Shown: positions 3,096 to 29,756 of the stretch, in pieces
Position numbering within the stretch: the stretch's first letter is position 1
Layout of the letters: each line of letters begins with the position of its first letter
DNA from: Aquilaria yunnanensis
Lineage: Eukaryota > Streptophyta > Magnoliopsida > Malvales > Thymelaeaceae
Length of the DNA: 64,000 bases
Direction of reading: 5' to 3'
Assembly (NCBI GenBank): GCA_039654915.1
Contig: CM077597.1
Span: forward strand, 23,782,001 to 23,846,000
Made by a program: the position numbers and the translations under genes
The notes under the pieces: generated by a model
What the model saw: the letters and a program-made list of their open reading frames with translations, nothing else
Told to the model about the DNA's origin: nothing
Databases searched by the model: none

Positions 3096-3121
3096 CCCCC
3101 CCCCCCCCCCCCCCCCCCCCC
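3096..3121 (+). repeat. Homopolymer C tract in LTR
   Basis: An uninterrupted run of 26 C lies at the end of a CCG/CGTC-rich block just downstream of the LTR promoter. The 3' LTR equivalent (23346-23367) has 22. The length difference fits slippage or sequencing uncertainty. The G-rich complement could form a quadruplex. Confidence 0.85.
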
Positions 3122-3289
3122 GCGACGCGTCGTGCTCTGTTTCTTTCCTGAGAATTCAAATTTTAATTTTAAAAGGGTAAACCCTTGTTTCACCCATCAT
3201 CTTTTCAATTTCTTTCACTTTAGTCACTGACTTTTTATTTTGTTCTTGCAGAATTGATTCCTAACCCTTTTAATTTTTACTTGTTTATT

Positions 3290-3990: not shown

Positions 3991-4425
3991 TTATTATTTA
4001 TTTTTAAAGTGGATGGCCAAAAACCCCACTTTATTATTATTAATTTTTCCTTTATTTGATTTATTTCATTTAATTCACCCTTACCCATAAATAAATAAAT
4101 AAAACCTAAAAGAAGATTCTTTTATAATTAATTATTAAAGCTAATAAAAATCATTTAAAAAAAACTAATTATTTTTATTTTGGAATACATGTTTTTATTA
4201 TTTCTTTAAAGATAACAAAGTTAACTTTTTATTCCTTTTTCTTAAAATTAATAAACAAGCATGATTAAATAGTACTAAAAATATACAAATCAACTTCTTT
4301 TTTTTAAAACATTTTTTAAAATAATGATATTTAAAATTTAAAATTCAAGAAAAATCCACTAAAATTATAATTAAAATAATTATAATTAATTAAATAATTA
4401 AAATTTAACAAAAATTAAAACTCCA

Positions 4426-6171: not shown

Positions 6172-6445
6172 AGTATAAAATTCTATACAAATTAATTACC
6201 AAAAATCCACATCCGATTAATTCAGTCAAAAATTCTAGATTGAAAATTAACTGAAATTTATTTAAAAGCAAAGCGAAACAAAATTAAAATCAACTAAGGT
6301 ACCAATTTTTAGGCGTTTTAACAAAGTTGTTTTAATGTAACCGTACTCCCGAACCCCCGAACTCTCGCAGACCATATTTTAGGTAACCAATCGACCTAAA
6401 CATAAACAGATTGGTGGCGACTCCTGAAAACCCAACGTTGCCACA

Positions 6446-7066
6446 GCTTGGCGACTCCACTGGGGACTTCACGTTAGTGAGTCGAGCCTAAAGTTGATTT
6501 GTTTTGATTTACTTTGCTTATTATGTGGATTTATATGTTATATTTACTTATTCTAAACATGCATAATGCATTCACAATATGAAGCTCTATACCCGAGCTT
6601 TCTCAAATCGAACACAATTCTTTCTAAGCGGAATTGGTGTTGTTGTCCTTGTGAGGCCATGGTCTCCAAGCCTTCACCGGTTTCAAAGTAGCAAAGTAGT
6701 ATATTGCCTCCTAAGACGGTTAGTCTCTGCATGGGCCCACGAAAAGCTACGACTCGAATTAATCCATTCCTTACATTAACCCTAGAGGGTAAAGAATCGG
6801 GCCGTCACTATGATTTAGTGACGGGATTCGGGAACTATCCCTTGCCTTTTTGATAAACCACCTTCTGCATATAGAATCCCTTACTCTATCGTAGAACCAG
6901 CCATTAAGAATTTCCTATACTTCGGTTCCAATTTTCATAGGTTTTGCTTTATCTATATGTTTGTATAATCCTATGTGTTACCTTTTTACTAACTCTGCTT
7001 TTCCTTATTTTTCCGGCATAAACATTTCATCATTAAAGATAAATATTTGGTGAAAGAATTACTATC
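6446..7066 (+). other. Ogre leader with primer binding site
   Basis: The leader has no convincing gene. The PBS is tggcgactccactgggga at 6449-6466, three bases after the LTR. It is of the kind reported for Ogre elements (tRNA-Arg primer, from memory of the family). A decamer identical to its start, tggcgactcc, also lies 34 bp upstream inside the LTR end (6415-6424). The leader continues untranslated to the ORF1 ATG at 7067. Confidence 0.8.
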
Positions 7067-8761
7067 ATGGACGTTCTCGACTACCTTCCCACAATGGTTA
7101 ATGGATCATGGAACGACACGGTAGTAGAAACTCAGCCCGAGGCTATGGAATACTCCGAAACGGCCCAAAAGCTTCACGGAGATTCTCTGACGTCCCACTC
7201 TCACGTTCAGCTCAAAGACCAGCTATCAGTCCAGATAAATCAGAATGACATCACTGAATTATTACAAGTCTGGAATAGTTGGAACTCTGCAGATCGGGAA
7301 GCTTTTACAGCAAAGTATGGTCACATCGCTCGCCTACTAAAAGTTACCGTCGATGCATCACTTGTCCGGGCCCTAATACAATTTTGGGATCCATTTTATC
7401 GATGCTTTTCTTTCGACAAGATGGATCTGGTTCCAACCATTGAAGAATACAACAACCTATTGGGTTGGTCCTCCGATTATCCAATTGAGATGTATCAACA
7501 CGATAGAAGAACGGAGCCTCATCGAGCCCTGGCAAAATTACTGGATATGCCAGCTTCCAGTCTTCAAGCCAAGTTTGCAACAAAAGGATGTCGAAAATTT
7601 ATCAGTTGGATCGATTTAAAACAATTAAGCCACGTTCTCCCTCAGAAGGATCAACGACGCAAGCTTTTCGCCCTGGCAATATATGGCCTGGTAGTCTTCC
7701 CAAGAATTATCGGATTCATTGAAGGAGATGTCATCACACTATTTGAGCAAGTCTGCAACGCTCAAGTGAATCCGACCTCAGTAATATTATGTGAAACTAT
7801 CAGGGCATTAAACTGCTGTCGCCAAAGAGGGGGCAAATTCATGGGATGTTCACATCTTCTCTACATTTGGATCAAAAGCCACCTTCCTTGTGATAAGCAA
7901 CACTTCGGAAATCACTTTTCAAAGGACTTCATCCCAATCGAAGACTTTTTGAAAAGTGAAACCACTCTTCATGACAGCAAGGAAGCATGGGTTAACTACT
8001 TCAGGAACATCACTGAATTAGAAATTGAATGGAGAGCCCCCTGGTCTACCTCCACTCGCGTTGTCTACCGTTGCGGCAATTGCCCGTGGGTTCCTCTCTT
8101 AGGTATATGGGGAGGAACAAGTTATGCCCCAGCTCAAGTACGAAAACAATTTGGGTCCATGCAATTTATACCCATGACGCATAATCTGAGTAAGTTGGAA
8201 TTTTCACACGAAGATCCAAATTCAAATAAGCTCGTAATGGGTATTTCAGTTGCGTGGAAAAGACTTTTTATATTGAAGTCAGGGCCTATTATTTCTCCCA
8301 CTGCTTATTATGAATGGAGAAATAATCGGAAGGAAGGAATAGTCCTACCTGACGAGGTTATCAGAAAGTTGGCGAAAAGAGAATTGGAAAAAGAACTAGA
8401 GGAAGAAAAGGAGAAGAACAAGAGAATGCTCCTCGACATACAACAGCTTGGTCATAAAACACAACAACTTGAAGAGAAGATTGAATGCCAAAAACAAGTC
8501 ATCTCCCAATTGGTTGAGGAAACTGACCAAAAAGAGATGAGGGCAAGATATTAGGAAGATCAATATAGGATTTCTCAAGATCAATTGCAAACATTTTTGG
8601 TAGAAGTTAGAAAAGTTACAGAACAAGCCCAACTAATGGGCGAAGAAGCCAAGGAATTAGAAGAACTGAGCTGTCCTACTCCATCAGTAAATGTTCAAAG
8701 AATGATGGAGTTCATATCTAAGGCCAGAAAGCAGTATTGTACTTTGGGTCGTTTCTTTTAA
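7067..8761 (+). pseudogene. Ogre ORF1 (DUF7745-like), interrupted by one TAG
   Basis: This is the extra ORF upstream of gag that marks Ogre elements; its function is unknown. The frame is open for 495 codons, meets a TAG at 8552-8554, then stays open in the same frame to a TAA at 8759-8761, for a full length near 564 residues. The globular part (about residues 60-430) contains VRALIQFWDPFYRCFSF and PTIEEYNNLLGW, typical of the plant DUF7745-type family. The rest is a Glu/Lys-rich coiled coil (from about residue 430), which the stop truncates. A single transition from a glutamine codon would explain the stop. Confidence 0.8.
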
Positions 8762-8948: not shown

Positions 8949-11045
8949 ATGGCAGAACAAGCCAAAGGACGTCTCATGGAGATGGAGTCCAAGATTGAAA
9001 GTATGTCAGAACAGATGAGACAATTGATGGAATTAATCAAAGGGAAAGCAACTCAAGTCCCCATCAAAGAAGTACAAGATCCCACTTATCCCCCGGGATT
9101 CACCCCGCAACGAGTCTCAGTCCAAGAAAACCTGTTTCAAGAATCAGGACCGTCTGCTAGTGTTCACCTGAAACAAGACACTGTACAGGAAGAGAAGAAG
9201 ACATTACCAAAAGATGAAGCAGAATCTCAAAAACTCGAGACAATAGAGAAAAGACTGAGAGCCATTGAAGGAGGCACTATATTCGGATCCCTTTCAGTGG
9301 ATGACCTCTGCTTAGTGCCAAATGTCGTAATCCCTTCGGACTTTAAAGTACCGGATTTCGTAAAATACGACGGAACGAGTGATCCCATCACTCACATCAC
9401 ACTGTTCCTAAGGAGACTACAACCACTCACAAAAGATGAAAAGGTGTGGATTGCACTTTTTCAGGAAAGTCTCACAAAATCAGCATTGCAGTGGTATCTA
9501 AGTCAAGGACCAAGAAACATCAAAACTTGGAATGACCTTGCTCAGGCCTTCATCGGCAACTATAAACATGTTATGGACTTGGCTCCGGATCGCCAAACTC
9601 TCCAAAACATGGAGAAGAAAAAGCCAGAAACATTCAAGGAATATGCCCAACGGTGGAGGGACTTAGCTGCACAAGTGCAGCCACCCATGACAGAAAGGGA
9701 AATGGTCACTTTGTTTGTCCAGACACTGAAGTACCCGTATTATGACAAACTTATTGGCAATGCGGCAACTAACTTCTCCGACGTAGTCATGTCTGGAGAA
9801 AGGATCCAGCACGGTATCAGGACCGGGAAGATTACTGAGTTCTTCAGTGATCCTATGAAAAGAGGAGGACCATCCAAAAGAAAAGATGAAGAAATACAAC
9901 AAATAGGGCGAGGAAGAGGGATTCCCCTCGTGGGTACTGTGGCCACCGGACCTCGCCTATCTTATCCTGCCAATAAGTCCAATTATTATCCTCCAAATAG
10001 GCCCAGTGATTTTCCTCCCAATAGGCCCAACAATTATCCTTTCAACAAGCCTAATCAGTTACGGCCACCCGTTCCGACTCCTCCACTGCCTGCACCAAGA
10101 CCAAGAGAAATTTTCGCACCAATTCCCATGACTTATACTGAGTTGTATCCAAAACTCATCGAGAGTCAACTTATTCGCCCAATTCCTACAAGGCCGCTGG
10201 AACCCCCATATCCAAGTTGGTATAACCCCAACATGAATTGCCCATATCATGATGGTGTTACAGGCCATGGCCTGGAAAATTGCATAGCATTAAAACGTAT
10301 AGTCCAACAATTAATTGAGTCAAAGTGGTTGGACTTTTCCGATGAACCAAACGTCACTCACAATCCATTGCCGTCTCATCAAGCAAAACCAATCAACATG
10401 ATAGAAGAATACCGGCCAATGAAAAAGTCAGTCAACGATATCATAACCCCTCTTAAGCATGTATATTCATGCCTTGTGAAAGAAGGGATTATCCTGGGAA
10501 AATCTTCTTTTGGACATGAAGAAGTCAAGGATGAGAAGTGGTGCAACTTTCATGACAGTAAGAGTCATTTTATCCAGGAATGCTCAGAATTTCGTGAAAG
10601 ACTACAAAGTCTCATTGATTCCTCTCAACTCATCGTTTTTATGTCAGATAAAGACGATGACATGAATGTGATCATTAAAGAACAAGATGCTATGCCAAGA
10701 CCACTAGTCATATCAATCTCAAAACCTACTCTTAAGCCTCTAAAAATTCAAGTCCCGAAGCCATTCCCATACAAATCAGACAAAACTGTTCCATGGAGCT
10801 ATGATTACACTTCTAACATCACATCAACTCCGTTAGAAGTTGGGATTATGACTAGAAGTGGTCGGTGCTATTCTCCGGAGGAAATGAACAAGCTCCAAAA
10901 AGATAAGAATGTCACAGACCCAACAAGTGGACCTCTTGATACAAATACATCCAAAGAGCAAGAGATGCCTCGAGCAGTGACAGACGAACAAGCTAATGAG
11001 TTTCTCAAACTCATAAAGCAAAGTGAGTACAGCATCGTTGAGTAA
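8949..11045 (+). CDS. gag: Ogre gag (capsid and nucleocapsid)
   Basis: Structural protein that packages element RNA in cytoplasmic particles. The 698-residue ORF starts with a short coiled coil. It then has the Retrotrans_gag domain (about residues 135-265, with KYDGTSDPITHITLFLRRL and WNDLAQAFIGNY), a Pro/Asn-rich linker, and two degenerate zinc knuckles near residues 430 (CPYH...GH...C) and 530 (WCNFHD...H...C). The TAA at 11043-11045 is followed in the same frame by the protease ORF with no gap. In Ogre elements gag and pro form one ORF, so the TAA is probably a nonsense mutation of a glutamine codon, though suppression of a natural stop cannot be excluded. Confidence 0.9.
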   Translation: MAEQAKGRLMEMESKIESMSEQMRQLMELIKGKATQVPIKEVQDPTYPPGFTPQRVSVQENLFQESGPSASVHLKQDTVQEEKKTLPKDEAESQKLETIEKRLRAIEGGTIFGSLSVDDLCLVPNVVIPSDFKVPDFVKYDGTSDPITHITLFLRRLQPLTKDEKVWIALFQESLTKSALQWYLSQGPRNIKTWNDLAQAFIGNYKHVMDLAPDRQTLQNMEKKKPETFKEYAQRWRDLAAQVQPPMTEREMVTLFVQTLKYPYYDKLIGNAATNFSDVVMSGERIQHGIRTGKITEFFSDPMKRGGPSKRKDEEIQQIGRGRGIPLVGTVATGPRLSYPANKSNYYPPNRPSDFPPNRPNNYPFNKPNQLRPPVPTPPLPAPRPREIFAPIPMTYTELYPKLIESQLIRPIPTRPLEPPYPSWYNPNMNCPYHDGVTGHGLENCIALKRIVQQLIESKWLDFSDEPNVTHNPLPSHQAKPINMIEEYRPMKKSVNDIITPLKHVYSCLVKEGIILGKSSFGHEEVKDEKWCNFHDSKSHFIQECSEFRERLQSLIDSSQLIVFMSDKDDDMNVIIKEQDAMPRPLVISISKPTLKPLKIQVPKPFPYKSDKTVPWSYDYTSNITSTPLEVGIMTRSGRCYSPEEMNKLQKDKNVTDPTSGPLDTNTSKEQEMPRAVTDEQANEFLKLIKQSEYSIVE

Positions 11046-12239
11046 TTGAACCGCCTACCAGCAAAAATTTCCATACTTTCATTGCTCTTAAGCTCTGATG
11101 CCCATCGAGAAGCTCTTCTCAAAGTCCTGAATAAGGCTTATGTTGAACAAGATATCTCCGTGAACAACTTTGACCACCTCGTCAACAACATCACGGCACA
11201 AAATCTCATCACATTCACTGACGATGAGATACCAGTAGAAGGAAGGGGTCACTCTAAGGCCCTACATATTTCGGTCAAATACAAAGATCGGATTATGGCT
11301 AGAGTTCTTATCGACAATGGGTCAGCTCTAAAGGTAATGCCACTCGAAACCTTACATAAGATCGGTTTAGACCCATCATACCTCAACAACAGTCATATTG
11401 TTGTTCGAGCGTTTGACGGAACGAAGAGAGATGTTGTTGGAGAAATAGAGCTACCAATAGGGATTGGTCCCTGTCTTTTCCACATCACATTCCAAGTCAT
11501 GGATATTTGTCCATCATATACCTGTCTGCTGGGAAGACCATGGATCCATATGGCCGGAGCAATTCCTTCTTCATTACATCAAAAAATGAAATTCATCATT
11601 GAAGGAAAGATAATCACAGTCTTTGCTGAAGAAGATATTCTGTTGTCAAGACCTGCGGATGCTCAATATGTCGAAGTCAATGAAAATATACCTGATTGCT
11701 CCTTCAGGTCTTTTGAGATTGTCAATGCTGCTTATGTCAGCGAATATGGAGAAGCACCCATTCCTAGCATCTCTAAAACAAGTCGCATGGTTGCCAAACT
11801 CATGATAAAAGGAGGATACTCACCGGGGTTAGGACTGGGACAAGATTTACAAGGAATCACAGAGCCATTGAAAATCACCACAAATGAAGGGAAATACGGC
11901 CTAGGCTTCACACCGACAAGACATGACAAAATGAAAGCAATAGCTGAAAAGAGAGAAAAGAGGATTGCACGATTAACAGGGCATCCTCTCCAGGAAAGAA
12001 ATCTGGATGTCCCAGAGATCACCGAAACGTTCGTGAGTGGTGGTTTGATTTCAAAAAATAACAATGAAGGCGCGCTGACCATCAACATCAACAAGTCTTT
12101 TGAAAGTCTTTCTATTCAAGCAATCATCAGCGATTCACCTGAAGATGAGGAGCTCATTCAACCTTGTGGCCCACGGGATGTGCTGAACAATTGGGAGGCG
12201 ATAGAACTGCCTGTTATAATCGAAACCTTTCCAAAGTAA
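11046..12239 (+). CDS. pro: Ogre protease region with G-patch
   Basis: This is the same-frame continuation of gag after the TAA at 11043. The retropepsin-like aspartic protease core is near residue 88 (VLIDNGSALKVMP, the DNGS variant seen in this lineage), with the closing part CLLGRPWIHMAGAIPSS. A G-patch motif follows near residues 245-290 (MIKGGYSPGLGLGQDLQG...YGLGF), a possible RNA-binding unit. The unspliced frame ends at TAA 12237-12239. Splicing of the intron at 12236-12419 would remove that stop and continue into pol. It has no ATG of its own at the start and depends on read-through from gag. Confidence 0.85.
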   Translation: MNRLPAKISILSLLLSSDAHREALLKVLNKAYVEQDISVNNFDHLVNNITAQNLITFTDDEIPVEGRGHSKALHISVKYKDRIMARVLIDNGSALKVMPLETLHKIGLDPSYLNNSHIVVRAFDGTKRDVVGEIELPIGIGPCLFHITFQVMDICPSYTCLLGRPWIHMAGAIPSSLHQKMKFIIEGKIITVFAEEDILLSRPADAQYVEVNENIPDCSFRSFEIVNAAYVSEYGEAPIPSISKTSRMVAKLMIKGGYSPGLGLGQDLQGITEPLKITTNEGKYGLGFTPTRHDKMKAIAEKREKRIARLTGHPLQERNLDVPEITETFVSGGLISKNNNEGALTININKSFESLSIQAIISDSPEDEELIQPCGPRDVLNNWEAIELPVIIETFPK

Positions 12240-12419
12240 TCCAATAGTAAAAACCTCCTAAAGAAAGGTTCAATCAATAGGGTGTAGTCTTTGTTTAAGT
12301 GAACCTTTTACTTATTGCTTTTTATTCCAATAAAGTTGTGATTTATGCACACTATAAATAAAGTACCAGTTTGCATCCATCTCATTCTTGCCATTTTTTT
12401 TTCTCTCTGAATAATGCAG
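12236..12419 (+). other. Putative Ogre intron between pro and pol (184 bp)
   Basis: A GT at 12236-12237 (context ccaaa|gtaatc) and an AG at 12418-12419 after a pyrimidine tract (ttttttttctctctgaataatgcag, about 12395-12419) flank an AT-rich segment. Removing it joins the split codon AA|A and carries the pro frame directly into the pol frame (...FPK|PETLFDDNKRM), deleting the pro stop. A small intron at this point is a known Ogre feature. The splice sites are inferred by frame and consensus. Confidence 0.75.
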
Positions 12420-15400
12420 ACCTGAAACTCTCTTTGATGACAATAAAAGAATGAACTTTGATAATCCTGTAAACACTACCGACTCGGATGACGAAGATCT
12501 TCAAATATCTCCTGAGCTATTAAAAATGATCGAGCGAGATGAAAAAGAAAGAGCAACAAGTCAAGAACCAACTGAGGCATTTAACTTGGGAGACAGTCAG
12601 AATGTAAAAGAAGTCAAGATTGGCACTCTATTCCCTCATGAAGAAAAAGAAGAATTAGTCCACTTATTGAAAGAATATGTGGATGTGTTTGCTTGGTCAT
12701 ACCAAGATATGCCTGGCTTAAGCTCAGACATAGTACTACACAAAATACCCTTGAAACCTGGGGCGAAGCCTGTCAGACAAAAGTTACGAAGATTACAGCC
12801 GGATCTAATCTTAAGAGTGAAAGATGAGATTCGAAAGCTGTGGGATGCAGGATTCCTTGGGGTCGCTGAATATACAGAATGGGTGGTTAACATTGTTCCG
12901 GTCGAAAAGAAAGAAAGTGGGAAACTAAGAGTTTGTCAGGACTACTGGCCATTGAACGAAGCCAGTCCTAAAGATAACTTCCCATTTCCTCACATTGATA
13001 CGCTGGTGGATAATACCGCAGGAAACTCCTATTTTTCCTTTATGGATGGCTTCTCTGGATACAATCAAATCAAACTTGATCCAAATGATATGATAAAAAC
13101 TGCCTTTATAACCCTTTGGGGTACCTTCTACTACAAGGTGATGCCTTTTGGGTTAAAGAATGCTGGTGCTACATATCAAAGAGCCATGGTTGCGTTATTC
13201 CATGACATGACGCATAAAGAAATTGAAGTATATGTAGACGACATGATCGCCAAAACTTTCACTGCTAGGGGGCATTTAAAAGTGTTAAGAAAACTATTCG
13301 ATAGACTTCGCAAATATCAACTGAAGTTGAATCCTGCCAAATGTATTTTTGGAGCCTCTTCAGGAAATTTATTGGGTTTCATGGTCAGCAAGGATGAGAT
13401 TCGAGTTGACCCGAGTAAAGTCAAAGCAATACAAAAAATGCAACCCCCAAAGACTCCAAAACAAGTAAGAAGTTTTCTGGGCAGAATCAACTTCATAGCA
13501 AGGTTCATTTCACAATTGACGTCCAAGTGTGAACCTCTTTTCAAATCACTGAAGAAGAACAATCCGATCGAGTGGAATAACGAATGCCAAGAAGCATTCG
13601 AGAAAATCAAGCAATATCTATCAAATCCACCAGTCTTGGTACCACCCCGATCTGGAGAATCGTTGATTCTATATTTATCCATACAGGATTCTTCATTAGG
13701 ATCTGTATTGGGTCAACGTGATGAGACAGGCAAGAAAGAGCATGCAATTTACTATTTGAGCAAGAAGCTTACCACATATGAAGCGAAATACTTAATAGTA
13801 GAAAAGTCCTGTTGTGCCCTTGCATGGGTAGCACATCGACTACGACACTACATGCTCAACAACACCACATTGCTAATCTCCAAGACTGATCCCATTAAGT
13901 ACATTTTTGAGAAACCAGCTTTATCAGGCAGGATCGCAAAATGGCAAATGCTGTTGTCTGAATACGACATACAGTATGTCACCCAAAAGGCTGTAAAAGG
14001 GAATGTGATTGCTGAATATCTGGCTGATAGAGCATTGGATGATTATGAGCCAATGAAAATGGAGTTTCCTGATGGAGATATAATGACGATAGAACAGGAA
14101 GTCTCTAAAGATGATGAAACATGGAAAATGGCATTCGATAGAGCATCTAATGCTTTGGGACAAGGGATTGGAGCCATACTTATCTCTCCAAGTGGAGAGC
14201 AATTCCCTCTCACAGCAAAAATTACATTTCCTTGTACCAACAATATAGTAGAGTATGAGGCATGTGCTATGGGACTCCAAATGGCACTGGAATTGAAAGT
14301 GCGAGATCTCCGAGTTTATGGGGATTTCGCATTAGTCATATATCAAATCAACGGAGAATGGGAGACAAGGGATTCAAAATTGATCCCTTACCAAAAGCTC
14401 ATACTAGACGTGGCTCGAAAATTCAACAGTATAAGCTTCCATCATCTTCCAAAGGAAGATAATCAAATACCGGATGCTTTAGCTACTTTGGCTGCTATGT
14501 ACAAGATCAGTGACCCCGAGCATACTCCTGTGTTCGAGATGAGAATAATAGATTCTCCAGCTTATTGCATGAGCATCGAAGAAGAATTGGATGGAAAGCC
14601 TTGGTATCACGATATCAAGAAATACCTCCAAGAAAGAGTATATCCACCAGAAGCATCAGAAAATGACAAGAAATTTCTACGAAGATTGTCAATGGGTTTT
14701 CTTTTAAACCTAGACATACTTTACAAGAAAACCCCAGACTCGATGCTACTTCGCTGTGTAGATACTCATGAAGCACGAAAGATCATGGAAAAAGTTCATT
14801 CTGGAATATGTGGAGCACACACTAGTGGTCATACCATGGCAAGACAAATAATGAGGGCTGGTTACTATTGGCTCACATTGGAAAGTGATTGCGTCAATCA
14901 CGTAAGAAAATGTCACAAATGCCAAATATATGCCAACAAGATCCAAGCTCCACCTGCTCCTCTTAATGTAACAGCAATACCTTGGCCTTTTGCCATGTGG
15001 GGAATCGATGTCATTGGAGCGATTACCCCTAAAGCTTCCAATGGTCACAAATTCATCCTAGTTGCAATTGACTACTTTACTAAATGGGTAGAAGCTGTGT
15101 CTTATGCAAGCGTAACTCAAAAGGTGGTATGCTGGTTCATTAAGAAAGAAATCATTTGTCGCTATGGACCGCCAGAGTGTATCATCTCAGACAATGCCAC
15201 GAACCTGAATAATGCAATGATGCAGACTTTGTGCCGGCAATTCAAAATCAAGCATCTCAATTCAGCACCTTATCGACCGATGATGAATGGTGCAGTAGAA
15301 GCGGCCAATAAAAATATCAAGAGAATTGTTGAAAAGATGATCGTCACTTACAAGGACTGGCATGAGATGTTACCTTTTGCACTACATGCTTATAGAACTT

Positions 15401-15849
15401 CTACCCGTACTTCTACTGGAGCAACACCTTTTTCTCTGGTATACGGTATGGAGGCTGTATTGCCCATCGAAGTTGAAATTCCTTCATTAAGGGTACTAAT
15501 GGATACTCAATTAAGAGAAGCAGAATGGGTCAAAGCTAGATACGAGCAATTAAATCTAATTGATGAAAGAAGAATGATAGCCCTCTGCCATGGGCAACTT
15601 TATCAAAGAAGGATGATTCGTGCTTACAACAAAAAGGTTCGCCCACGACAATTTCACGAAGGTGACATAGTGCTCAAGAAAATTTTACCCATGCAACATG
15701 ATTCAAGAGGAAAATGGACACCAAATTATGACGGGCCATATGTCGTGAAGAAAGCATTTTCAGGAGGGGCACTAATTCTGACAGAAATGGATGGACGAGA
15801 ATTATCGAAGCCAGTAAATTCGGATGCAGTAAAGAAATACTTTGCATAA
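12420..15849 (+). CDS. pol: Ogre pol: RT, RNaseH, second RNaseH, integrase
   Basis: This ORF is open over 1132 codons from the first ATG (12451), or from 12420 if spliced to pro. The domain order, with residues counted from 12451, is: RT about 145-340 with YVDD near 260; Ty3-type RNaseH about 365-500; archaeal-type second RNaseH about 555-690, with acidic positions in FDRASN, VEYEAC, YGDFAL and NQIPDAL; integrase HHCC finger about 782-830; DDE core with Asp near 851 (WGIDVIG), Asp near 912 (ISDNAT) and Glu near 948 (VEAANK); and a C-terminal GPYVV-type tail. There is no chromodomain, as expected for Tat/Ogre. Some family-conserved residues look altered (DYWPLN, FDRASN, GDFALV), so activity is uncertain. 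Confidence 0.95.
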
Positions 15850-17174: not shown

Positions 17175-17723
17175 ATGGATCCTACTTTTTCCGCCTTGCG
17201 AAAGTATTTCCCTTCTCTCCCAATGAACATCCTCAAAAAGATCTACCAAGTTCGCTGTGAACGATTAAGAGTTCTGATGCACAAAGGAATCCCTGAAGAT
17301 GTGCGGTGGTTAATCGAAGCCAAGGTTCGTCTGGCAGGTGAAATCCCAGAGGCATTTGTGTCTCACATGCCTGGTATAGGCAAAAGCTCTTATGCCAAAA
17401 AGCGAAGAGCGAAAAGGTTACAAGTCTGCCATAAATGTGGACGGTGGACTTGTAATACTAAATGTCGTTCTTTAGGGATGATCTCTGATAATCGAGAAGA
17501 TAAAATACGATTCATTAAGAATGGCCTGAGTAAGGATTCGTTGGATGATATCCAATTGACTCTTGAGACGCATTCTTGTGGATCTGTGCAACGTGAACTT
17601 CTTGGTTTATGGAGCATTTTTCATGAAGAACGAAACCGTTACAGTCCCGGGAATCTGACTGTAAATGACCCTGTTTGCCAGCTTGTAAGAAAACTGGATG
17701 GGAAGCAAATCCTCGACTCATAG
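17175..17723 (+). CDS. Cys-rich nucleic-acid-binding-like protein, copy 1 (open)
   Basis: This ORF of 182 residues is intact. Residues 66-84 carry a Gly/Ser lead-in, Tyr-Ala and a basic run (GIGKSSYAKKRRAKR), directly followed by a four-cysteine cluster C85-x2-C88-x4-C93-x3-C97. The same order of features is the hallmark of the small cysteine-rich nucleic-acid-binding proteins of carlaviruses (Carla_C4 family), which bind nucleic acid, can enter the nucleus and in some viruses act as symptom determinants or silencing suppressors. The cysteine spacing here is tighter than I recall for the viral family. The C-terminal half (about 125-182) is not recognised. The homology is an inference from motif order; an independent plant zinc-finger origin is possible. 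It is the first of three tandem copies. Confidence 0.6.
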   Translation: MDPTFSALRKYFPSLPMNILKKIYQVRCERLRVLMHKGIPEDVRWLIEAKVRLAGEIPEAFVSHMPGIGKSSYAKKRRAKRLQVCHKCGRWTCNTKCRSLGMISDNREDKIRFIKNGLSKDSLDDIQLTLETHSCGSVQRELLGLWSIFHEERNRYSPGNLTVNDPVCQLVRKLDGKQILDS

Positions 17724-18011: not shown

Positions 18012-18555
18012 ATGGATTCTACTCTTTCTGCACTGTGAAAATACTTTCCTTCCCTTCCAATAAAAGTCCTTAAAAAGATCTACCTTGCTATATGTGAAAT
18101 AATCAGAGTTTTTACACGCAAAGGCATTCCCGATAATGTGCAGTGGATAATTGAAGCTAAGGTCCGTTTGGCGGGTGAAGTTCCAGATGCATTTATGCCC
18201 CGCATGCCCGGTTTAGGTAAAAGCTGTTATGCCAAAAGGCGAAGAGCAAAGAGACTAGGCGTGTGTTATAAATGTGGGCGATGAAATTGTAATACTAAAT
18301 GTCGCTCTTTAGGATACATCTCCATAAATCGTGAAGATAAAAGAAAATTCATTAAGAATGGCCTGCGTAAGGAATCTCTGGAAGATATCTGAGAGACTCT
18401 TGAAACGCATTCTTGTGGAAAAGTGCAAGGTGATCGGTTTATGGATGACTTACCATAAAGAACGAAACCGTTACAGTCTTGGGAATGTGACTTTAAACGA
18501 CCCTGTTTGTCAGTTTGTAAGAAAACTGGATGGGAAGCAAATCCTCGACTTATAG
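18012..18555 (+). pseudogene. Cys-rich nucleic-acid-binding-like protein, copy 2 (broken)
   Basis: This is homologous to the ORF at 17175 over its whole length, with the same ends. It is disabled by TGA codons at 18036-18038 (codon 9), 18282-18284 (just after the zinc cluster begins) and 18390-18392, and by a 5-bp loss near 18430 that shifts the frame. The stops sit at Arg or Trp codon positions of the other copies, so they are explained by C-to-T or G-to-A transitions, as expected of methylated transposon DNA. The basic run and cysteine positions remain recognisable. Confidence 0.8.
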
Positions 18556-18703
18556 AAAGCATTGAAGCCATTACTGGACATAAATCAGTGGAAGATGAGA
18601 GCCACGGTCATGATTCCTGTACATATAAGCTGTCATTTGTCTTTTCTTTTGACAATAATGTACTTGCTTCTGTAAGTGTAATTAACGCATTATCCCTTTC
18701 ATC

Positions 18704-18771: not shown

Positions 18772-19320
18772 ATGGAGTCTTCTCTTTCCGCCTTACGAAA
18801 GTATTTTCCTTCCTTCCTAATAAATGTTCTTAAAAAGATTTATTAAGCTAGATGTGAACGATTCAGAGTATTTATGCACAAAGGCATTCCTGATAATGTG
18901 CGGTGGCTAATTGAAGCTAAGGTTCGTTCAGCTGGTGAAGTTCCAGAAGCGTTCTTTCCCCGTATGCCCGGCTTTGGTAAAAGCGCTTATGCCAAAAAAA
19001 GAAGAGCAAAGAGGCTAGGCGTTTGTCATAATTGTGGATGGTGGATTTGCGGCAATAAATGTCGTTCTCCAGGAGTGATCACCAGAAATCGTAATGATAG
19101 AATAAGATTCATTAATAATGGCTTGTGTAAGGAATCTCTAGAAGATATTCGAGAGGTTCTTGAAGCGCATTCTTGCGGAATAGTGCAATTTGAGGTTGTT
19201 GGATTATGGATAATTTTCCAAAAAGAACGAGATCGTTACAGTCTTGGGAATCTGACCCTAAATGACCCTGTTTGCCAGTTTGTGAGAAAGCTAGATGAGA
19301 TGCAAATCACCGATTCATAG
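18772..19320 (+). pseudogene. Cys-rich nucleic-acid-binding-like protein, copy 3 (one stop)
   Basis: This is the third tandem copy, the same length as copy 1, with a single TAA at codon 25 (18844-18846) where copy 1 has glutamine. The rest is open, retains GFGKSAYAKKRRAKR and all four cysteines, and could initiate at an internal Met (18874, 148 residues) that keeps the basic and zinc regions. The many amino-acid differences from copy 1 show that the triplication is not recent. It is followed at once by the 87-bp repeats that derive from the segment downstream of these ORFs. Confidence 0.75.
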
Positions 19321-19372
19321 AAAGCATTGAAGCCATTACTGGACGCAAAGCCAGTGGAAGACGAGGATCAAA

Positions 19373-19905
19373 GTCACGATTACTGTACGTGCTAGCTGTC
19401 GCTTTTGAAATTTTCCTCCCCTTTTGGTAATAATGTATCCACTCCTGACGTGAACCAAAGTCACGATTACTGTACGTGCTAGCTGTCGCTTTTGAAATTT
19501 TCCTCCCCTTTTGGTAATAATGTATCCACTCCTGACGTGAACCAAAGTCACGATTACTGTACGTGCTAGCTGTCGCTTTTAAAATTTTCCTCCCCTTTCG
19601 GCGATAATGTATCCACTCCTGACATGAGCTATAGTCACGATACTGTACATGCTAGCTGTCGCTTTTGAAATTTTCCTTCTCCTTTGGCAATAATGTACCC
19701 ACTCCTGACACGGACTACTGTATATAGCTGCCACTTTTGAAATTTTCCTTCTCTTCCAACAATCACGTACCTACTCCTGACGTAAGCTACAGTAGTGACT
19801 ACTGTACATGCTAGCAGCTATTTTGAAAATTTTCCTCCTCTTTTAACGATAGTGTACCCATACCTGACCAGAGTCGTACTCGTGACTATTGTGTATAGCT
19901 AGCAA
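19373..19905 (+). repeat. 87-bp tandem repeat array upstream of LOG
   Basis: The start gtcacgattactgta recurs at 19373, 19460, 19547 and (slightly changed) 19634, an 87-bp period, with two or three more degenerate units up to about 19900. Most units carry ctcctgacgtg or a close form (TGACG, at about 19445, 19532, 19778; decayed at 19619 and 19704), and the first three also carry tactgtacgtgc (ACGT core). One related unit occurs singly after accessory copy 1 (about 17765-17800) and copy 2 (about 18595-18625). TGACG/ACGT cores are binding sites of TGA-type bZIP factors, so the array may act as an enhancer of the LOG promoter. Confidence 0.75.
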
Positions 19906-19953: not shown

Positions 19954-19964
19954 CTATAAATATA
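19954..19964 (+). promoter_or_regulatory. TATA box of the LOG gene
   Basis: ctataaatata lies 31-41 bp before the LOG ATG at 19995, in the context ctttatctcttcatctctataaata, which resembles the cassettes before accessory copies 2 and 3. The leader would be very short. This TATA lies inside the upward extension of the LOG frame, which argues for the ATG at 19995 rather than 19908. Confidence 0.5.
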
Positions 19965-19994: not shown

Positions 19995-20624
19995 ATGGAG
20001 AAAACCCCAACTCGTAAATCCCAAAGTATTTGTGTATTTTCTGGGGCTTTTCCTGGAAAAGATGAAGAGTATTTAAAGGCAGCCAACCATTTGGGTAGAG
20101 TATTGGCTGAGCGAAAAATACATTTAGTTTATGGAGGAGGTAGTGTCGGATTAATGGGAGGTGTAGCATCAGCAGCATCTTTAGGAGGAAGTCAAGTTTT
20201 GGGCATCATCCCTGGACCTTTGAAATTTGTTTCTGGGGGCACGATTGGAGAAGAATTAGTGGTTAAAAATTTGCAAGAGCGTGTGTTACAAATGCTTTTA
20301 AATGCTGATGCTTTTATCGCTCTACCAGGTGGTTTTGGCACATTGGGAGAAGTCTTTCAAATTGCTTCCATGGCCCAACTTAATTTGCATAAGAAACCCA
20401 TTTGGCTTTTAAATGTTAACAATTTCTTTACAGGTCTGATAGCTTTTATGGATTATGCTATGCAGAAGAATTTCATATCAAGAGTGGCACGGCGAATCAT
20501 AATATCCGCAACAACTGCTGAAGAATTGCTAGATAAAATACAAGCTTTTGTTCCTGAACCAGATACAGCAATGATTCAGATAGACTGGACACGACAGTCT
20601 TTCCCGACCAGTTCACTCCCATAA
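19995..20624 (+). CDS. LOG-like: LOG-family cytokinin riboside 5'-monophosphate phosphoribohydrolase carried by Ogre
   Basis: LOG enzymes cleave ribose 5'-phosphate from cytokinin nucleotides, giving active free-base cytokinin in one cytosolic step. This ORF has 209 residues, the usual LOG length. It keeps the N-terminal Rossmann start (SICVFSGAFPGK), YGGGSVGLMGGVA (46-58), Arg96 at the position of the catalytic arginine, the signature PGGFGTLGE (111-119, Glu119) and LLNVNNFF...FMDYA. It is unbroken while neighbouring ORFs carry stops. Plant LOG genes have several introns and this copy has none, so it looks like a processed capture. It departs from canonical LOGs around Arg96 (LQERVLQM instead of the usual HQRKAEM), so activity needs testing. 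It lies in sense orientation, downstream of its own TATA box and the 87-bp array. Confidence 0.92.
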   Translation: MEKTPTRKSQSICVFSGAFPGKDEEYLKAANHLGRVLAERKIHLVYGGGSVGLMGGVASAASLGGSQVLGIIPGPLKFVSGGTIGEELVVKNLQERVLQMLLNADAFIALPGGFGTLGEVFQIASMAQLNLHKKPIWLLNVNNFFTGLIAFMDYAMQKNFISRVARRIIISATTAEELLDKIQAFVPEPDTAMIQIDWTRQSFPTSSLP

Positions 20625-21185
20625 TGGTCCTCTACTCACCCTGTTGAAGTATTGTGGAAGAAAGAAGCGATCTGATCCGTTTTTCTTGTCCTTTAGTTTT
20701 ATTATCAGCATTTTCTTTCGCGTTTCAGTTTTTCTTTTCAAGGAATTTCTTTTTTTATAAGATAGTTTCGTCCATGCTGATATTAAAACCATAGGACAAT
20801 GCCTTTAGGTTGGAATGGCTGAGTAAAGAGTAATTTTTGTTACTCTTGAGACGCATCCTATTAGGTCTACTAGGCATAACATTTTGGGGTAGTTAAGCTT
20901 TAACCTTATTCGGATGACATATCTCACAAGGGAATCTATATTTACTGAAGAAAATATTAGATGAACCTTGAATATTGATTCCAAACATCCGTTCCCTTTA
21001 CATAATTTGTCAGTGTTATTGTCATCATCAAGATTCACTCGTTTTATCGAAGCCTAATTCTTTGCGCTCGCCTATTATGAAAATTCACACTTTCGAAGAA
21101 AATTATTCCAATTTCAATTGCTTTCATATAAATTTCGCTCGAGGTCCTAAGGAAAGCTCCTTAGCCTCAAAATCAATTTTCATCA
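20625..21185 (+). other. LOG 3' flank
   Basis: This is noncoding and AT-rich. I see no ORF of interest and no match to other parts of the window. It leads into the 51/62-bp repeat array. Confidence 0.4.
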
Positions 21186-22290
21186 TCGGGGTTTTAAGGA
21201 TGGAACCTTTGCCTAAAAAATAATCAATTTTCATCATCGGAGTTTTAAGGATGGAACCTTTGCCTCGAAAATAATCAATTTTCATCGACGGGATTTTAAG
21301 GATGGAACCTTTGTCTCGAAAACAATCAACGGTAGGACTGCTCCTATCGTCGGGATTTTAAGGATGGAACCTTTGTCTCGAAAACAATCAACGGTAGGAC
21401 TGCTCCTATCGTCGGGGTTTTAAGGATGGAACCTTTGCCTCGAAAACAATCAACTTTCATCGTCGGGATTTTAAGGATGGAACCTTTGTCCCGAAAACAA
21501 TCAACGGTAGGACTGCTCCTATCGTTGGGGTTTTAAGGATGGAACCTTTGCCTCGAAAACAATCAATTTTCATCATCGGGATTTTAAGGATGGAACCTTT
21601 GTCTCGAAAACAATCAACGGTAGGACTGCTCCTATCGTCGGGGTTTTAAGGATGGAACCTTTGCCTCGAAAATAATCAATTTTTATCATCGGGGTTTTAA
21701 GGATGGAACCTTTGCCTCGAAAATAATCAATTTTCATCGTCGGGATTTTAAGGATGGAACCTTTGTCTCGAAAACAATCAACGGTAGGACTGCTCCTATC
21801 GTCGGGATTTTAAGGATGGAACCTTTGTCTCGAAAACAATCAACGGTAGGACTGCTCCTATCGTCGGGGTTTTAAGGATGGAACCTTTGCCTCGAAAACA
21901 ATCAATTTTCATCGTCGGGATTTTAAGGATGGAACCTTTGTCTCGAAAACAATCAACGGTAGGACTGCTCCTATCGTCGGGGTTTTAAGGATGGAACCTT
22001 TGCCTCGAAAACAATCAATTTTCTTTCAACGATAGACTGCTCCTATCACCGGGGTTTTAAGGATGGAACCTTTGCCTCGAAATCAATCAATTTTCCTTCA
22101 ACGGTAGGACTGCTCCTATCGTCGAGGTTTTAAGGATGGAACCTTTGCCTCGAAATTAATCAATTTTCATTCAACGGTAAGACTGCTCCTATCGTCGGGG
22201 TTTTAAGGATGGAACCTTTGCCTCGAAAACAATCAATTTTCCTTCAACGGTAGGACTCCTCCTATCGCCGAGGTTCTAAGGAGGATTCCT
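21186..22290 (+). repeat. 51/62-bp tandem repeats in Ogre 3' region
   Basis: There are about 18 units built on the core ttttaaggatggaacctttg. Two unit lengths alternate: 51 bp (ending caattttcatc) and 62 bp (with the insert caacggtaggactgctcctatc). Measured starts include 21192, 21243, 21294, 21356 and 21418. Variable tandem repeats just before the PPT are documented for the Tat/Ogre lineage and can seed satellite DNA. Confidence 0.9.
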
Positions 22291-22388
22291 TAACCTTACA
22301 ATTTAGGTGGCGAGAAGGTTCTCAATGCCTAGCTAAGCCGGACGAAATTTGGTAACGACTTTGCATACATCATGTCCCATGAAGCATG

Positions 22389-22402: not shown

Positions 22403-25400
22403 TGTTGACACCCAATTTCGTCCGGCCATTAAAATAATTTAAAAAAAATTAATTAAAAAAATGTATTATTATTATTATTGTTATTATTATTACTAAAATT
22501 TTTTTCATTAGTTTAAAATACATTTTTTTGTTTTGTTTTGGGAAGATTTGATATATGTGTGTATATGTGTATGTTTGAAAGAAAAAAAGAAAACTCCATA
22601 AAAATGACAAAATTAAAAAGTTTGAGATAAAAATGACAAAATTGAGAAGTTTCGGGCAAAATTGACAAATTCTGAAAGTTCCAGGAGCTTTGGGCAATTT
22701 TTCGCGTCAATTTTGGGCCTAAACGGACGTTTCTGGCCCAAATTAACAGAAAACGACAAAATTGTCAAAATCAGAAGCTTCTGAAGCTTATCCAGAGCCT
22801 GAGAAATGTAAAGGACTGAAATTGTCATTTTACCAATTTAAAAGATAAGTTTGAAATTTTTTATTAATTTATCCATCAACAGTTCAGCCAAACTTCCTCT
22901 ATAAATAGGCCTCCAAATTTAGTGCTGAACACAGAAAAAAATAGACAGAAAGCTTAGAGCTCCGTTTTAGAAAAAAAAACAATTACAGCCTTAGTCCCTG
23001 GTCCTCTTTCCTTTTATTAGAAAGTCCCAAAAGTTTCTGTTCTGACGTATAGACCATCTTCTTCCTCCGTTTTCTTTCTCTTTCTTCCTTCTCCTTCGCT
23101 GCCCGTCGCTCCACGCCGTCCCGCCGCCGCCCGTCGCTCCCCCACGCTGCCGTCGCGCCGTCCCCACGCCGTTACGCCGTCGACCGTCACTCTTCCCCGC
23201 CGTCGTGCCTCTCCCGCCGTCATCTTTTTTTCCTTTCTCCTTCCTCCACCGCCGTCGCTCCTGCCGTCCTGCGCCGCCGCGCCCTGCCGTCCCGTGCCGC
23301 CGTCGCCGCCGTCCCCCCCTGCCCCTGGTCGCGCTACCGCCCCGTCCCCCCCCCCCCCCCCCCCCCCGACGCGTCGTGCTCTGTTTCTTTCCTGAGAATT
23401 CAAATTTTAATTTTAAAAGGGTAAACCCTTGTTTCACCCATCATCTTTTTCAATTTCTTTCACTTTAGTCACTGACTTTTTATTTTGTTCTTGCAGAATT
23501 GATTCCTAACCCTTTTAATTTTTACTTGTTTATTTATTTGTTTATTATTGTTATTATTACTAACCCTTCTTTTTATTGTTATTATTATAACTAACTTACT
23601 AACCTTATTATTATTATGACTAACCTTATTATTATTTATTATTATAACTAACTTACTAACCTTATTATTATTATGACTAACCTTATTATTATTATTATTA
23701 TGACTAACCTACTAACCTTATTATTGTTACCTCAACTAACTTACTAACTTTTATTTTTATTGTTATTAACATCTAACTTTACTAACTTTGCTAACTTTTA
23801 TTATTGTTGTTAATAATTAATTTAATTAACTTGGCTAACTTTTTATTATTGTTGTTAATTAATTAATTTAATTAACTTGACTAACTTTTTATTATTTTTG
23901 TTAATTAATTAATTTAATTAACTTGGCTAACTTTTTATTATTGTTGTTAATTAATTAATTTAATTAAACTTGGCTAACTTTTAATTTAATTAAAATTGAC
24001 TAACTTTTATTATTGTTGTTAATTAATTAATTTAATTAAACTTGGCTAACTTTTTATTGTTGTTAATTAATTAATTTAATTAAACTTGGCTAACTTTTAT
24101 TATTGTTGTTAATTAATTAATTTAATTAAACTTGGCTAACTTTTTATTGTTGTTAATTAATTAATTTAATTAAACTTGGCTAACTTTTATTATTGTTGTT
24201 AATTAATTTAATTAACTTAACTAACCTTTATTATTATTTATTTTTAAAGTGGATGGCCAAAAAACCCCACTTTATTATTATTAATTTTTCCTTTATTTGA
24301 TTTATTTCATTTAATTCACCCTTACCCATAAATAAATAAATAAGACCTAAAAGAAGATTCTTTTATAATTAATTATTAAAGCTAATAAAAATCATTTAAA
24401 AAAAACTAATTATTTTTATTTTGGAATACATGTTTTTATTATTTCTTTAAAGATAACAAAGTTAACTTTTTATTCCTTTTTCTTAAAATTAATAAACAAG
24501 CATGATTAAATAGTACTAAAAATATACAAATCAACTTCTTTTTTTTAAAACATTTTTTAAAATAATGATATTTAAAATTTAAAATTCAAGAAAAATCCAA
24601 TAAAATTATAATTAAAATAATTATAATTAATTAAATAATTAAAATTTAACAAAAATTAAAACTCCATGACCAAATTATCCGCCAGGATCCATGGCTTGGA
24701 AATATTTTTTAATAAAGTATATAAATAAATTTTTCTTTATTAAAAATAAACACTTTGGACTAATATATTAATTATTTAATAAAATATAATTTTTTAGTTT
24801 TCTTTATTAATTTAAAGAATAAAAAGAGTAAAAATTTTGAGTTAATATTTTATTCAGTAATATTTTTACTTATTTCTTTCAAAATAATGAAAAGATATAA
24901 CTTTTTGTTTCCTTTATAAAAATCATAGTCAAAAATAATAAAAAATAAATAATAAAAAAAGTGAATTGAATTTCTCTTAAATATTTTAGACTTATTAATT
25001 AGATATATTTTCAGAGATATAAATTAAAATTATTAAAAAAAATCTTTCATAAAAAAAAAGAATATAAAAATAACAAATAAATATCAAGATTTTTATATAC
25101 ATGTAAATTTTTAAATAATCACTTTTGGTTAAATTTCTATAAAAAACAAAACAAATAAATATCAAAACTTTTATATACATAAAATTTTAGTTTCTTTTCT
25201 TAAATAATCACTTTTGATTAATTCTTTTTATTAAAAAAAATTAAAAAATAAAATATTAAGATTTTTCTTTTATTTTAAAATATACATATAAATTTGTGGT
25301 TTTTTTAAATATACATAAAATTTAATTAAAATAATTACTTTTTAGTTAATCTTTTACTCAAAACAAATTAAATAAATATTAAGACTTTTTCTTTTTGTTT

Positions 25401-26676
25401 AAAATATACATATAAATTTTTTGGTTTTCTTAATTAAATAATTATTTCTGGTTAATCCTTTTTTTTAAAAAACAAAAACAAACAAAATATTAAAACTTTT
25501 TTATATATATATAAAATTTTTTTTTCTTTTATTAAATAAATAAAATTTTGATTAAATAATTACTTTTTGTTCACTTTTTATCAGATAACATACTAAGACT
25601 TTTCTTTTATTTTTGAAATATATGTATAATTTTTTGGTTTATTTGTTAAATAAAATCTTGGTTAAATAATTACTTTTTGGTTATCAAACCAACAGAATAA
25701 ATGTCAACTCTTCAAATTTTCTTTCAAAAAATTCTTGATATTAAATATTTTATTAAATAAAATTATTTTTCTTTTATAAATTGAATAATTATTTAAATAA
25801 TAAATAACTTTCACTAAAAAAAAACTAAAAGAAAGATAAGAAAAAGATAAGAAAGATAAGAAAAAGATAAAAAAAGAAAAGAAAGAAAGTAAAGAAAGAA
25901 AAGAAAAAGAAAAGATAAAAAAAGAAAAGAAAGAAAGAAAAGAAAAAGAAAAGAAAAGAAAAGAAAGAAAAGAAAGGAAAAATAAAACTAAAAGAAAGAT
26001 AAAATCAATAAGAAAGAAAAGAAAGAAAGAAAAGAAAGAAAAGAAAAGAAAATATAAAGAAAAAAAAATAAAATTTTTAGATTATTAATAAATCTAAAAT
26101 TTTCATAAACAAAAGACTTACAAATTAGTAATAATAAATTCCATAAAAATAATAATTATATAACTAACAATTAATTAAAGTAATTTCCATATCTGGATGA
26201 TCCGGCAGGATCTACGGTTTGGAAAATATTAACTTTTTTAACTAAATAAATTAAATAAATATAAAGATAAAATCCATATTCATAATATGGATAAAATTGT
26301 TTAAAATTTCACCAAATTCCGTGTCCAAATGACTCGGCAGAGTCCATGGTTCGGAATCAAATCTTCCGTGTCCAAATGACTCGGCAGAGTCCATGGTTCG
26401 GAAGTATAAAATTCTATACAAATTAATTACCAAAAATCCACATCCGATTAATTTAGTTAAAAATTCTAGATTGAAAATTAACTGAAATTTATTTAAAAGC
26501 AAAGCGAAACAAAATTAAAATCAACTAAGGTACCAATTTTTGGGCGTTTTAACAAAGTTGTTTTAATGTAACCGTACTCCCGAACCCCCGAACTCTCGCA
26601 GACCATATTTTAGGTAACCAATCGACCTAAACATAAACAGATTGGTGGCGACTCCCGAAAACCCAACGTTGCCACA
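22403..26676 (+). repeat. Ogre 3' LTR
   Basis: This 4274-bp copy of the 5' LTR has the same internal order: TATA box 22898-22910, GC-rich block with a 22-C run at 23346-23367, TTAATTAA repeats, purine tract near 25815-26050, conserved boxes near 24661, 26187, 26320 and 26365. It differs from the 5' LTR by scattered substitutions and small indels, and ends in GCCACA at 26676. Confidence 0.95.
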
Positions 26677-28237: not shown

Positions 28238-29756
28238 TCAAGAATTAATCTCTAATGTATTGGGGTCACAAAGTAAGTCATCAAGCTCAACCCAACTGTC
28301 CGGGTCAAACGTGCCGGTTTCTCCCAAACAAAGTTCTGCCCAGTAGTCATCAGTTGTGAGAGTGTCCTGTCCAGGGAGTTCACATCCCTGCAAAAGCATT
28401 TGATCATGGTGCTCAGTCTTGCTTGCAGGACAAGGAACTAGAAACCCTAACGGGTTATCTGCATCAACGACAGTAGACTGCACTTGCGCTTCAAAATCAA
28501 CAGAGGGAGGTAGAACTGGCATTTGAGTTTGGACATTTACAGCAGCTGGTTCCTGGACATTGAGTTCACTTCCCTGCAAAAGCATTTGATAATGGTGCTC
28601 ACTCTTGCTTGCAGGACAGGGAACTAGAAACCCTAACTGGTTATCTGCACCAACATCAGTAGACTGCACTTGCGCTTCAACATCAACAGAGCAAGGTTCT
28701 TCGGAAACAACAGCAGACAGTACTTCTTGAGGCTCCAGAGGGATGACGATTTTCTTACTAGCCTTGAGGCTTTTCTTGCTCAGCAAGGCTTCTCTGATTT
28801 CAGGCACTTCAACATCAACAGAGCAAGGTTCTTCGGAAACAACAGCAGACAGTACTTCTTGAGGCTCCAGAGGGATGGCGATTTTCTTACTAGCCTTGAG
28901 GCTTTTCTTGCTCAGCAAGGCTTCTCTGATTTCAGGCACTTCAACATCAACAGAGCAAGGTTCTTCGGAAACAACAGCAGACAGTACTTCTTGAGGCTCC
29001 AGAGGGATGGCGATTTTCTTACTAGCCTTGAGGCTTTTCTTGCTCGGCAAGGCTTCTCTGATTTCAGGCACTTCAGCGGCCTTTCTTTTCTTACTTGATG
29101 TCGAAGCAATCCTTCTGTTGCAGCGCAGCACACACAATACCAAATTGTTCGGCTGAATTCCACAATCAATCCAAGAAAAATCGATTAGCACTTAGGAACC
29201 CTAATCGCACAATTAATTCCCGCAGATTAGGAAAATCACCCAGAAAAAGACAAGATGAAAAAGAATAAATTCAACCCACCTGCGAATTTGGGAGCAAGAA
29301 GGGATCGAGGGTGTACTCCAACATGATCCAGCGACCCTCTTGCTCCGGCGGCCCGCCCTCGTACCGGAACCTCTTCTTCAGACCCAACGCCGTTTGACAG
29401 TCCCGAGGATCTTTCACTGCCGCACCCGCATCCTCAGCGTTCCAGCAACCCGACCCAACCCGCCGGTCAATTCTCGAACCTCTCACCGATTTCTTCTTCA
29501 ATTTGGTGAAGAAATAGAGATCTGGAAGTTCCTCATTCCCTTTCTTTTCTATCCCAGGCCACGAAAGCTCTTCATTCCATATCAACCATGGCTCTGTCTC
29601 GCCATACAAGTCGCGGTCCTTGACGAAGAAGTACGGATCGAAATACGATGAACCTTCCGCCACTCTTCTGCGGAGATAGTGGCCGAGTAGTTCGCTATCC
29701 GTGGGACGGAACCGGAGCCCCACTGGAAAAAACGCCGCCGTGGAGGACTCCATCAA
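28238..29756 (-). CDS. NAC domain transcription factor with C-terminal tandem repeats (2 exons)
   Basis: NAC proteins are plant-specific nuclear transcription factors. Exon 1 is 29756-29280 (159 residues) and holds the NAC domain: FPVGLRFRPTDSELLGHYL, then WLIWNEE, DLYFFTKLKKKS, GSGCWNAEDAG and GRWIMLEYTLD. Donor GT is at 29279-29278. Exon 2 is 29152-28238, after an AG acceptor (attcag), continuing in frame as PNNLVLCVLRCNRRIA, the end of the NAC domain. The intron is 127 bp and the protein about 463 residues. A basic stretch (SSKKRKA) could be a nuclear signal. The C-terminal half has three 44-residue repeats, then a second pair of about 50-residue repeats (AQVQST...LVPCPASK). The motifs fit a divergent NAC subgroup. 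The gene looks intact and a scrap of a second copy lies at 46069-46207. Confidence 0.88.
28673..29068 (-). repeat. Three 132-bp in-frame coding repeats in the NAC gene
   Basis: The unit tcaacatcaacagagcaagg begins at about 28677, 28809 and 28941, a 132-bp (44-codon) period. The three copies are almost identical: I see single differences such as atgacg/atggcg and ctcagc/ctcggc. The encoded unit starts VPEIREAL and ends CSVDVE. The strong identity points to recent expansion or ongoing homogenisation. Confidence 0.9.

Follow-up and report, generated by a model that had tools for sequence, protein, structure and literature searches.

The window, by which we mean the whole 64,000-nucleotide stretch of Aquilaria yunnanensis DNA that was analysed, contains a complete Ogre-like LTR retrotransposon that carries a LOG-derived ORF. 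In the explanation that we prefer, and to which we give about an even chance of being right, this ORF is one of the accessory genes that an Ogre-like lineage carries and belongs to a single LOG-derived clade, which gained a C-terminal tail and then had its substrate pocket rewired. With the presumed recognition site for the hormone precursor changed, the ORF is unlikely to be simply a hormone gene and may benefit the element in some other way.

The host element and its accessory ORFs

The original prediction that a LOG-family ORF lies inside a complete Ogre-like element was confirmed by the LTRs, by a 5-bp target-site duplication (CTTTC) and by Pfam domains. The element occupies positions 2118-26676 (24,559 bp) and has LTRs of 4.3 kb, which were delimited by a blastn comparison of the window with itself and by inspection of their ends and flanks. 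The 5' LTR (2118-6445, + strand, as for all features of the element given below) is directly preceded by CTTTC, and the 3' LTR (22403-26676) is flanked by AAAGGGGGGCAGC on its left and by CTTTC on its right. Across the BLAST-matched part of the LTR pair (4214 aligned sites) the K2P divergence was 0.0151. Directly after the 5' LTR we read the primer binding site TGGCGACTCCACTGGGGAC (6449-6467), which we take to match the 3' end of plant tRNA-Arg. Downstream of it lie an ORF1 with likeness to DUF7745/plant mobile domain proteins (7067-8554, Pfam DUF7745, E = 5.2e-57), a gag ORF (8949-11045, Pfam Retrotrans_gag, E = 1.3e-11), a protease-region ORF with a G-patch (11046-12239, Pfam G-patch, E = 9.3e-10) and pol (12451-15849), comprising reverse transcriptase, RNase H, a second RNase H and integrase (Pfam RVT_1, RT_RNaseH, RVT_3, Integrase_H2C2 and rve). 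The second RNase H (RVT_3) precedes the integrase, and the size, LTRs, target-site duplication and domain order are those of Ogre/Tat elements. An ORF1 upstream of gag is a criterion of that lineage, and it is found here together with the presumed tRNA-Arg primer site. Ogre/Tat elements also have an intron between protease and reverse transcriptase; in the window, the ORFs of these two regions are in differing frames and separated by a gap of 211 bases (12240-12450). This gap, at the place expected of an Ogre intron, holds one copy of the TATA-like sequence CTATAAAT (at 12352). A tblastn search across the rest of the 64-kb window gave no second LOG and no other gag or reverse transcriptase match. 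Just outside the element, on the - strand at 28238-29756, are ORFs, one of them with a tandemly repeated protein segment; judged by eye, these resemble pieces of a NAC-type gene.

Between the integrase and the LOG-derived ORF are three accessory ORFs in tandem, at a spacing of about 800 bp. Copy 1 (17175-17723) is open and encodes a 182-aa protein like viral cysteine-rich or nucleic-acid-binding proteins (hereafter CRP-like), scoring 31.3 bits for Viral_NABP (cut-off 23) and 26.8 bits for Carla_C4 (cut-off 20.9). It has a basic stretch followed by CX2CX4CX3C, and the four cysteines and several basic residues were invariant in a 14-row alignment. Copy 2 (18012-18560) is interrupted by stops and also changes frame; copy 3 (18772-19320) has a single stop at 18844, is open afterwards, and also scored above both Pfam cut-offs. 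These two Pfam families are those to which flexivirus cysteine-rich proteins belong. The stops that had been predicted in gag and in two accessory ORFs were all seen, that of gag lying in frame at 11043-11045, with the protease region next in the same frame. For copy 1 against copy 3 dN/dS was 0.21 (dS 0.85); comparing copy 2 with copy 1 and with copy 3 gave 0.17 and 0.20, respectively (first 90 codons), and frame-shifted controls gave 0.67 and 1.7. Because dN/dS between the copies is about 0.2, the accessory ORFs appear to have been under long protein constraint before the present copies broke. Copy 1 matched 266 database proteins, and Populus, Xanthoceras and Orobanche were the organisms named among the best 120 of these. 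Its basic stretch and zinc-finger cysteines are shared by the cysteine-rich proteins that carlaviruses, allexiviruses and mandariviruses encode; copy 1 differs from them in being retrotransposon-encoded, 182 aa long and one of three tandem copies. The accessible part of PMC12172455 describes such viral proteins as silencing suppressors, and one of them as a transcription factor causing hyperplasia.

Upstream of the LOG-derived ORF lies an array of approximately 87-bp repeats (19306-19892; repeat families D4, D5 and D7), the first of which begins within the last part of accessory copy 3. Part of the array resembles the sequence that flanks the accessory unit on its 3' side, and the array may have grown from that flank. 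Three of the window's four TGACGTRA sites are within it; an enrichment of TGACG in the array was discarded as a candidate signal, as the sites lie within copies of one repeat and are hence non-independent. A TATA-like CTATAAAT (19954-19961) lies 41 bases upstream of the LOG ATG. This sequence occurs once in each of the gaps between accessory and LOG ORFs (17884, 18705 and 19954) and also in the 3' LTR (22899), with 12 occurrences in the window against 6.1 expected, a count reached in 2 of 100 shuffles. Its placement in all three gaps, two of which are duplicates of each other, is suggestive. It is plausible that the LOG-derived ORF would be transcribed from an internal promoter of its own, made up of the repeat array and the TATA-like site. 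The interval between this ORF and the 3' LTR holds a minisatellite (21182-22303; repeat families D1 and D3).

Pocket and tail of the LOG-derived proteins

The LOG-derived ORF (19995-20624, + strand) encodes a 209-aa protein with the LOG Rossmann fold and matches to the family profile and is, as had been predicted, intronless and in sense orientation; it lies between the integrase and the 3' LTR. The PGGxGTxxE signature (here PGGFGTLGE) and the arginine at the catalytic position (within LQERV), both part of the original prediction, are present. In whole-length alignment the protein is 40-43% identical to six host LOGs, and it differs from plant LOGs (AtLOG3, At2g37210; AtLOG8, At5g11950) in its replaced prenyl site and in being borne by a retroelement. 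Against the NCBIfam equivalog NF058542 (cut-off 300 bits) it scored 99.3 bits; four host LOGs scored just 116-133 bits, and as these are also far under the cut-off, the shortfall was dropped as an argument against LOG function.

In the accessible part of a study of the C. glutamicum LOG (CgLOG, whose numbering we use; PMC4979012), Arg99 and Glu122 are proposed to be catalytic, and Met96, Lys100 and Glu121 constitute the adenine site. The prenyl site given there (Met96, His97, Lys100, Glu125 and Trp129) was inferred by superposition and is identical in AtLOG3, OsLOG and CpLOG, and alanine mutants at the AMP-binding and catalytic residues had nearly no activity left, except S19A. In the window protein the Arg99/Glu122 pair is retained, and the five prenyl-site residues are replaced by Leu, Gln, Val, Gln and Met, respectively, as is the adenine contact Glu121 by Gly. 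The claim of an intact cytokinin-activating LOG was thus supported as regards LOG family and catalytic pair, and lacked support at the five prenyl-site residues and Glu121 and in the missing C-terminal tail, which most listed relatives bear. As a cytokinin enzyme the window copy is probably weak or inactive.

The pocket was then compared in an alignment of 118 family rows (including the window protein and P0008, and leaving out P0003, P0004 and P0050, the fused or double LOGs of Xanthoceras) and 120 host LOG rows. Among the family rows, Arg99 is retained in 114, Glu122 in 115 and Trp129 in 114, and position 96 is Met in 89 and Ile in 26. Lys100 is replaced by Met, Leu, Ile or Val in 117 of the 118, and Glu125 is replaced in 116, mostly by Gln (76) or His (35), whereas Arg99, Glu122, Lys100 and Glu125 are all retained in 120 of 120 host rows. 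At the level of aligned residues, the family combines a kept Arg/Glu pair with an altered pocket that has a hydrophobic residue at position 100 and mostly Gln or His at position 125. Mapped on the tree (see below), the loss of Lys100 takes one change and that of Glu125 takes one change, P0072, the first branch, being the sole keeper of both among 27 representatives. P0002, which is 91% identical to the window protein, has the same M96L, H97Q, E121G, E125Q and W129M, and has Leu at position 100.

The family also differs from plant LOGs in a C-terminal tail that most of its listed members carry. LxLxL was found within the last ten residues in 100 of the 121 listed family rows (a count that takes in the window protein), in 22 of the 27 representatives and in none of the 120 host rows. 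A stricter form, with LxLxL in the last 14 residues and three or more of the eight residues ahead of it basic, was present in 96 of the 121. In controls, LxLxL was seen in 154 of 20,000 shuffled proteins and in 0 of 5,029 ten-residue segments taken from elsewhere in the 27 representatives. In the structure model of P0023, residues 202-215 have a pLDDT below 50, as would a tail that behaves like a short linear motif. LxLxL is one of two EAR-type motifs according to the available text of PMC6479872, and interaction with TOPLESS is reported for a downy mildew effector and a smut effector (PMC7446885 and PMC8126959, in their accessible parts). The window copy, having no C-terminal LxLxL, is without an EAR motif (LxLxL or DLNxxP). 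The tail is likewise absent from P0002; P0105 stops ahead of it and P0054 within it, and altered forms are found in P0107 and P0070. P0072 has the tail together with the old pocket (Lys100/Glu125), and therefore the tail probably arose before the pocket change. With a looser tail motif the tree needs five changes, of which one gain and four losses is one reading.

The clade and the explanations weighed

Family rows were taken as the best 120 of 7,776 matches to the window protein, and host rows as the best 120 of 7,999 matches to AtLOG3/AtLOG8, so that both lists are chosen by likeness and may miss intermediates. Clade members named among the best 120 family matches come from Reevesia, Populus, Paulownia, Diplodiscus, Rehmannia and Parasponia, and Xanthoceras proteins are also in this list; Reevesia pubescens alone has at least 38 locus tags on 16 chromosomes among these 120. 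The tree took in 27 representatives of clusters formed from 117 rows, along with two Xanthoceras units (one LOG unit each from P0003 and P0050) and 23 host and two bacterial LOGs, with P0008 outside the clusters by length. A branch with support 99/90 set the 27 family representatives apart, a second branch (99/94) did so for the host LOGs, and under bacterial rooting the Xanthoceras LOG units were sister to the family representatives. The aligned units of the Xanthoceras sorbifolium proteins (P0003, P0004 and P0050) have the host-type Lys100/Glu125. These data support a single clade comprising the LOG-derived proteins of the window and of the named genera, multicopy and dispersed in Reevesia, and the clade kept its coding sequence, as seen at the protein level, while spreading.

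Three source sequences of at least 2 kb were of equal size for LOG and CRP-like matches (8723, 4511 and 2128), a number reached by none of 60 length shifts. Over all source sizes (120 LOG and 119 CRP-like sizes, from the best-listed rows) seven were shared, and 2 of 60 shifts reached seven. The co-occurrence is weak over all sizes and suggestive at 2 kb and above. From the element in the window, the scattered Reevesia loci, these shared source lengths and a printed report on Populus and Citrus (see below), we infer that the relatives outside the window also lie within elements. We consider it unlikely that an unrelated LOG gene became nested in the element, as the clade of this ORF is dispersed and the shared source sizes indicate the same neighbour elsewhere. 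When viral contigs were scanned with the window protein, two stretches fitted a pattern and neither encoded a relative; a scan with the family alignment gave 28 loci (L001-L028) of distant LOG relatives (23-39% identity), none near enough for a copy of the LOG-derived family.

In the preferred explanation, alignment and tree indicate that the clade acquired a flexible tail, basic and then LxLxL, and that the Lys100/Glu125 pair later gave way to a hydrophobic residue and mostly Gln or His, with the hydrolytic Arg/Glu pair staying. The family protein would be a LOG-type nucleotide phosphoribohydrolase with an altered preference for the N6 group, its tail would bring about nuclear entry and contact with the TOPLESS corepressor, and together with the neighbouring CRP-like zinc-finger protein it may render the host cell more permissive to the element. 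The window copy would be a derived form without the tail and with further pocket changes at positions 96, 97, 121 and 129. However, the sharing of source sizes by LOG and CRP-like matches is weak when all sizes are taken, and the tail-less window copy is the most deviant of the 27 rows, differing at 8 of the 75 near-invariant columns of the family alignment, which fits decay too. That the ORF of this sublineage is a functionless passenger under relaxed constraint, open merely through a young insertion, is doubtful as a whole, although for the window copy we take seriously the rival view that a gene altered earlier is now decaying. The LTR divergence of just 0.015, the stops in gag and two accessory copies, the missing tail, the changed near-invariant columns and an end branch of 0.63, the longest among the family rows, all point this way. 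Despite the long branch, however, the catalytic pair and 67 of the 75 columns are retained, and P0002 shares the pocket changes, which suggests that the sublineage multiplied while carrying them; P0002 may be a copy from the same genome.

The other readings overlap with these and with one another, and their probabilities are not to be added up to one. A special case of the preferred explanation, somewhat unlikely in our view, is a shifted specificity, in which cytokinin would still be released and the hydrophobic pocket would favour isopentenyl-type over hydroxylated precursors. It is consistent with the catalytic pair and Trp129 in most rows, with Met or Ile at position 96 and with the hydrophobic replacements of Lys100, but Lys100 doubles as an adenine contact in CgLOG (PMC4979012, accessible part), and the window copy has lost Trp129 and Glu121 as well. 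We regard as unlikely a more elaborate version, in which a captured hormone enzyme became a nuclear effector owned by the element; its hydrolase site would be re-aimed at another nucleotide, its NLS-EAR tail would recruit TOPLESS, an internal promoter would drive it and a CRP-like silencing suppressor would lie beside it, so that a mobile element which is not infectious would carry a cassette of two genes for manipulating its host. An ordinary intact LOG carried as cargo, which would make active cytokinin from the riboside monophosphate and push host cells to divide, is improbable. The LOG fold and family scores, PGGxGT, the hydrolytic pair kept family-wide and the widespread Trp129 speak for it, whereas the altered prenyl site and Glu121 of the window copy, the changes at Lys100 and Glu125 that set the family apart from the host LOGs, and the near inactivity of the CgLOG alanine mutants other than S19A speak against it. 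Very improbable is a scavenger of nucleotide signals, namely a SLOG-fold protein whose changed pocket would bind or split a nucleotide-derived immune or stress signal and not a cytokinin precursor.

Relation to known retrotransposons

The suggestion that LOG cargo is new to such elements was weakened by a printed report of a YgdH (LOG) domain in LTR elements of Citrus and Populus, there said to be "in line with" Steinbauerova et al. 2011 (PMC9289625). Like the window element, these Ty3/gypsy elements have LOG as an extra domain, and Populus proteins fall within the window clade. In its accessible part, however, the report gives the domain label alone, without pocket, tail, single origin or CRP-like partner, and describes the additional ORFs of plant Ty3/gypsy elements as mostly lacking known domains. 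Titles and opening abstract lines of the literature on LOG genes in retrotransposons or Ogre elements, a set mostly outside subscription papers, held nothing on the pocket, the tail or a CRP-like partner, and the main texts of Vicient and Casacuberta 2020 and Neumann et al. 2019 mention neither YgdH nor lysine decarboxylase. In the texts accessible to us, the LOG domain in such elements is therefore already known, and the changed pocket, the tail and the viral-type partner found no printed match.

The LOG-derived accessory ORF offers a readable history, with a single clade, a kept catalytic pair, a changed pocket, an added tail and a partner from a family of silencing suppressors. Should it act on the hormone, corepressor or nucleotide signals of the host, it would demonstrate that retrotransposons of plants carry genes for host manipulation as viruses do. 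Should it be merely a changed LOG, the family would provide a natural set of variants for the role of Lys100 and Glu125 in LOG specificity. A similar capture is described in the available text of PMC9289625 for Phalaenopsis elements of a sister group to Tat/Ogre, which are giant Tat-type elements with a host-type enzyme, an AlkB RNA demethylase, as an accessory ORF, and which have a tRNA-Arg primer binding site and dual RNase H as in the window element. They differ from it in the enzyme captured and in having Gag and Pol in one ORF.
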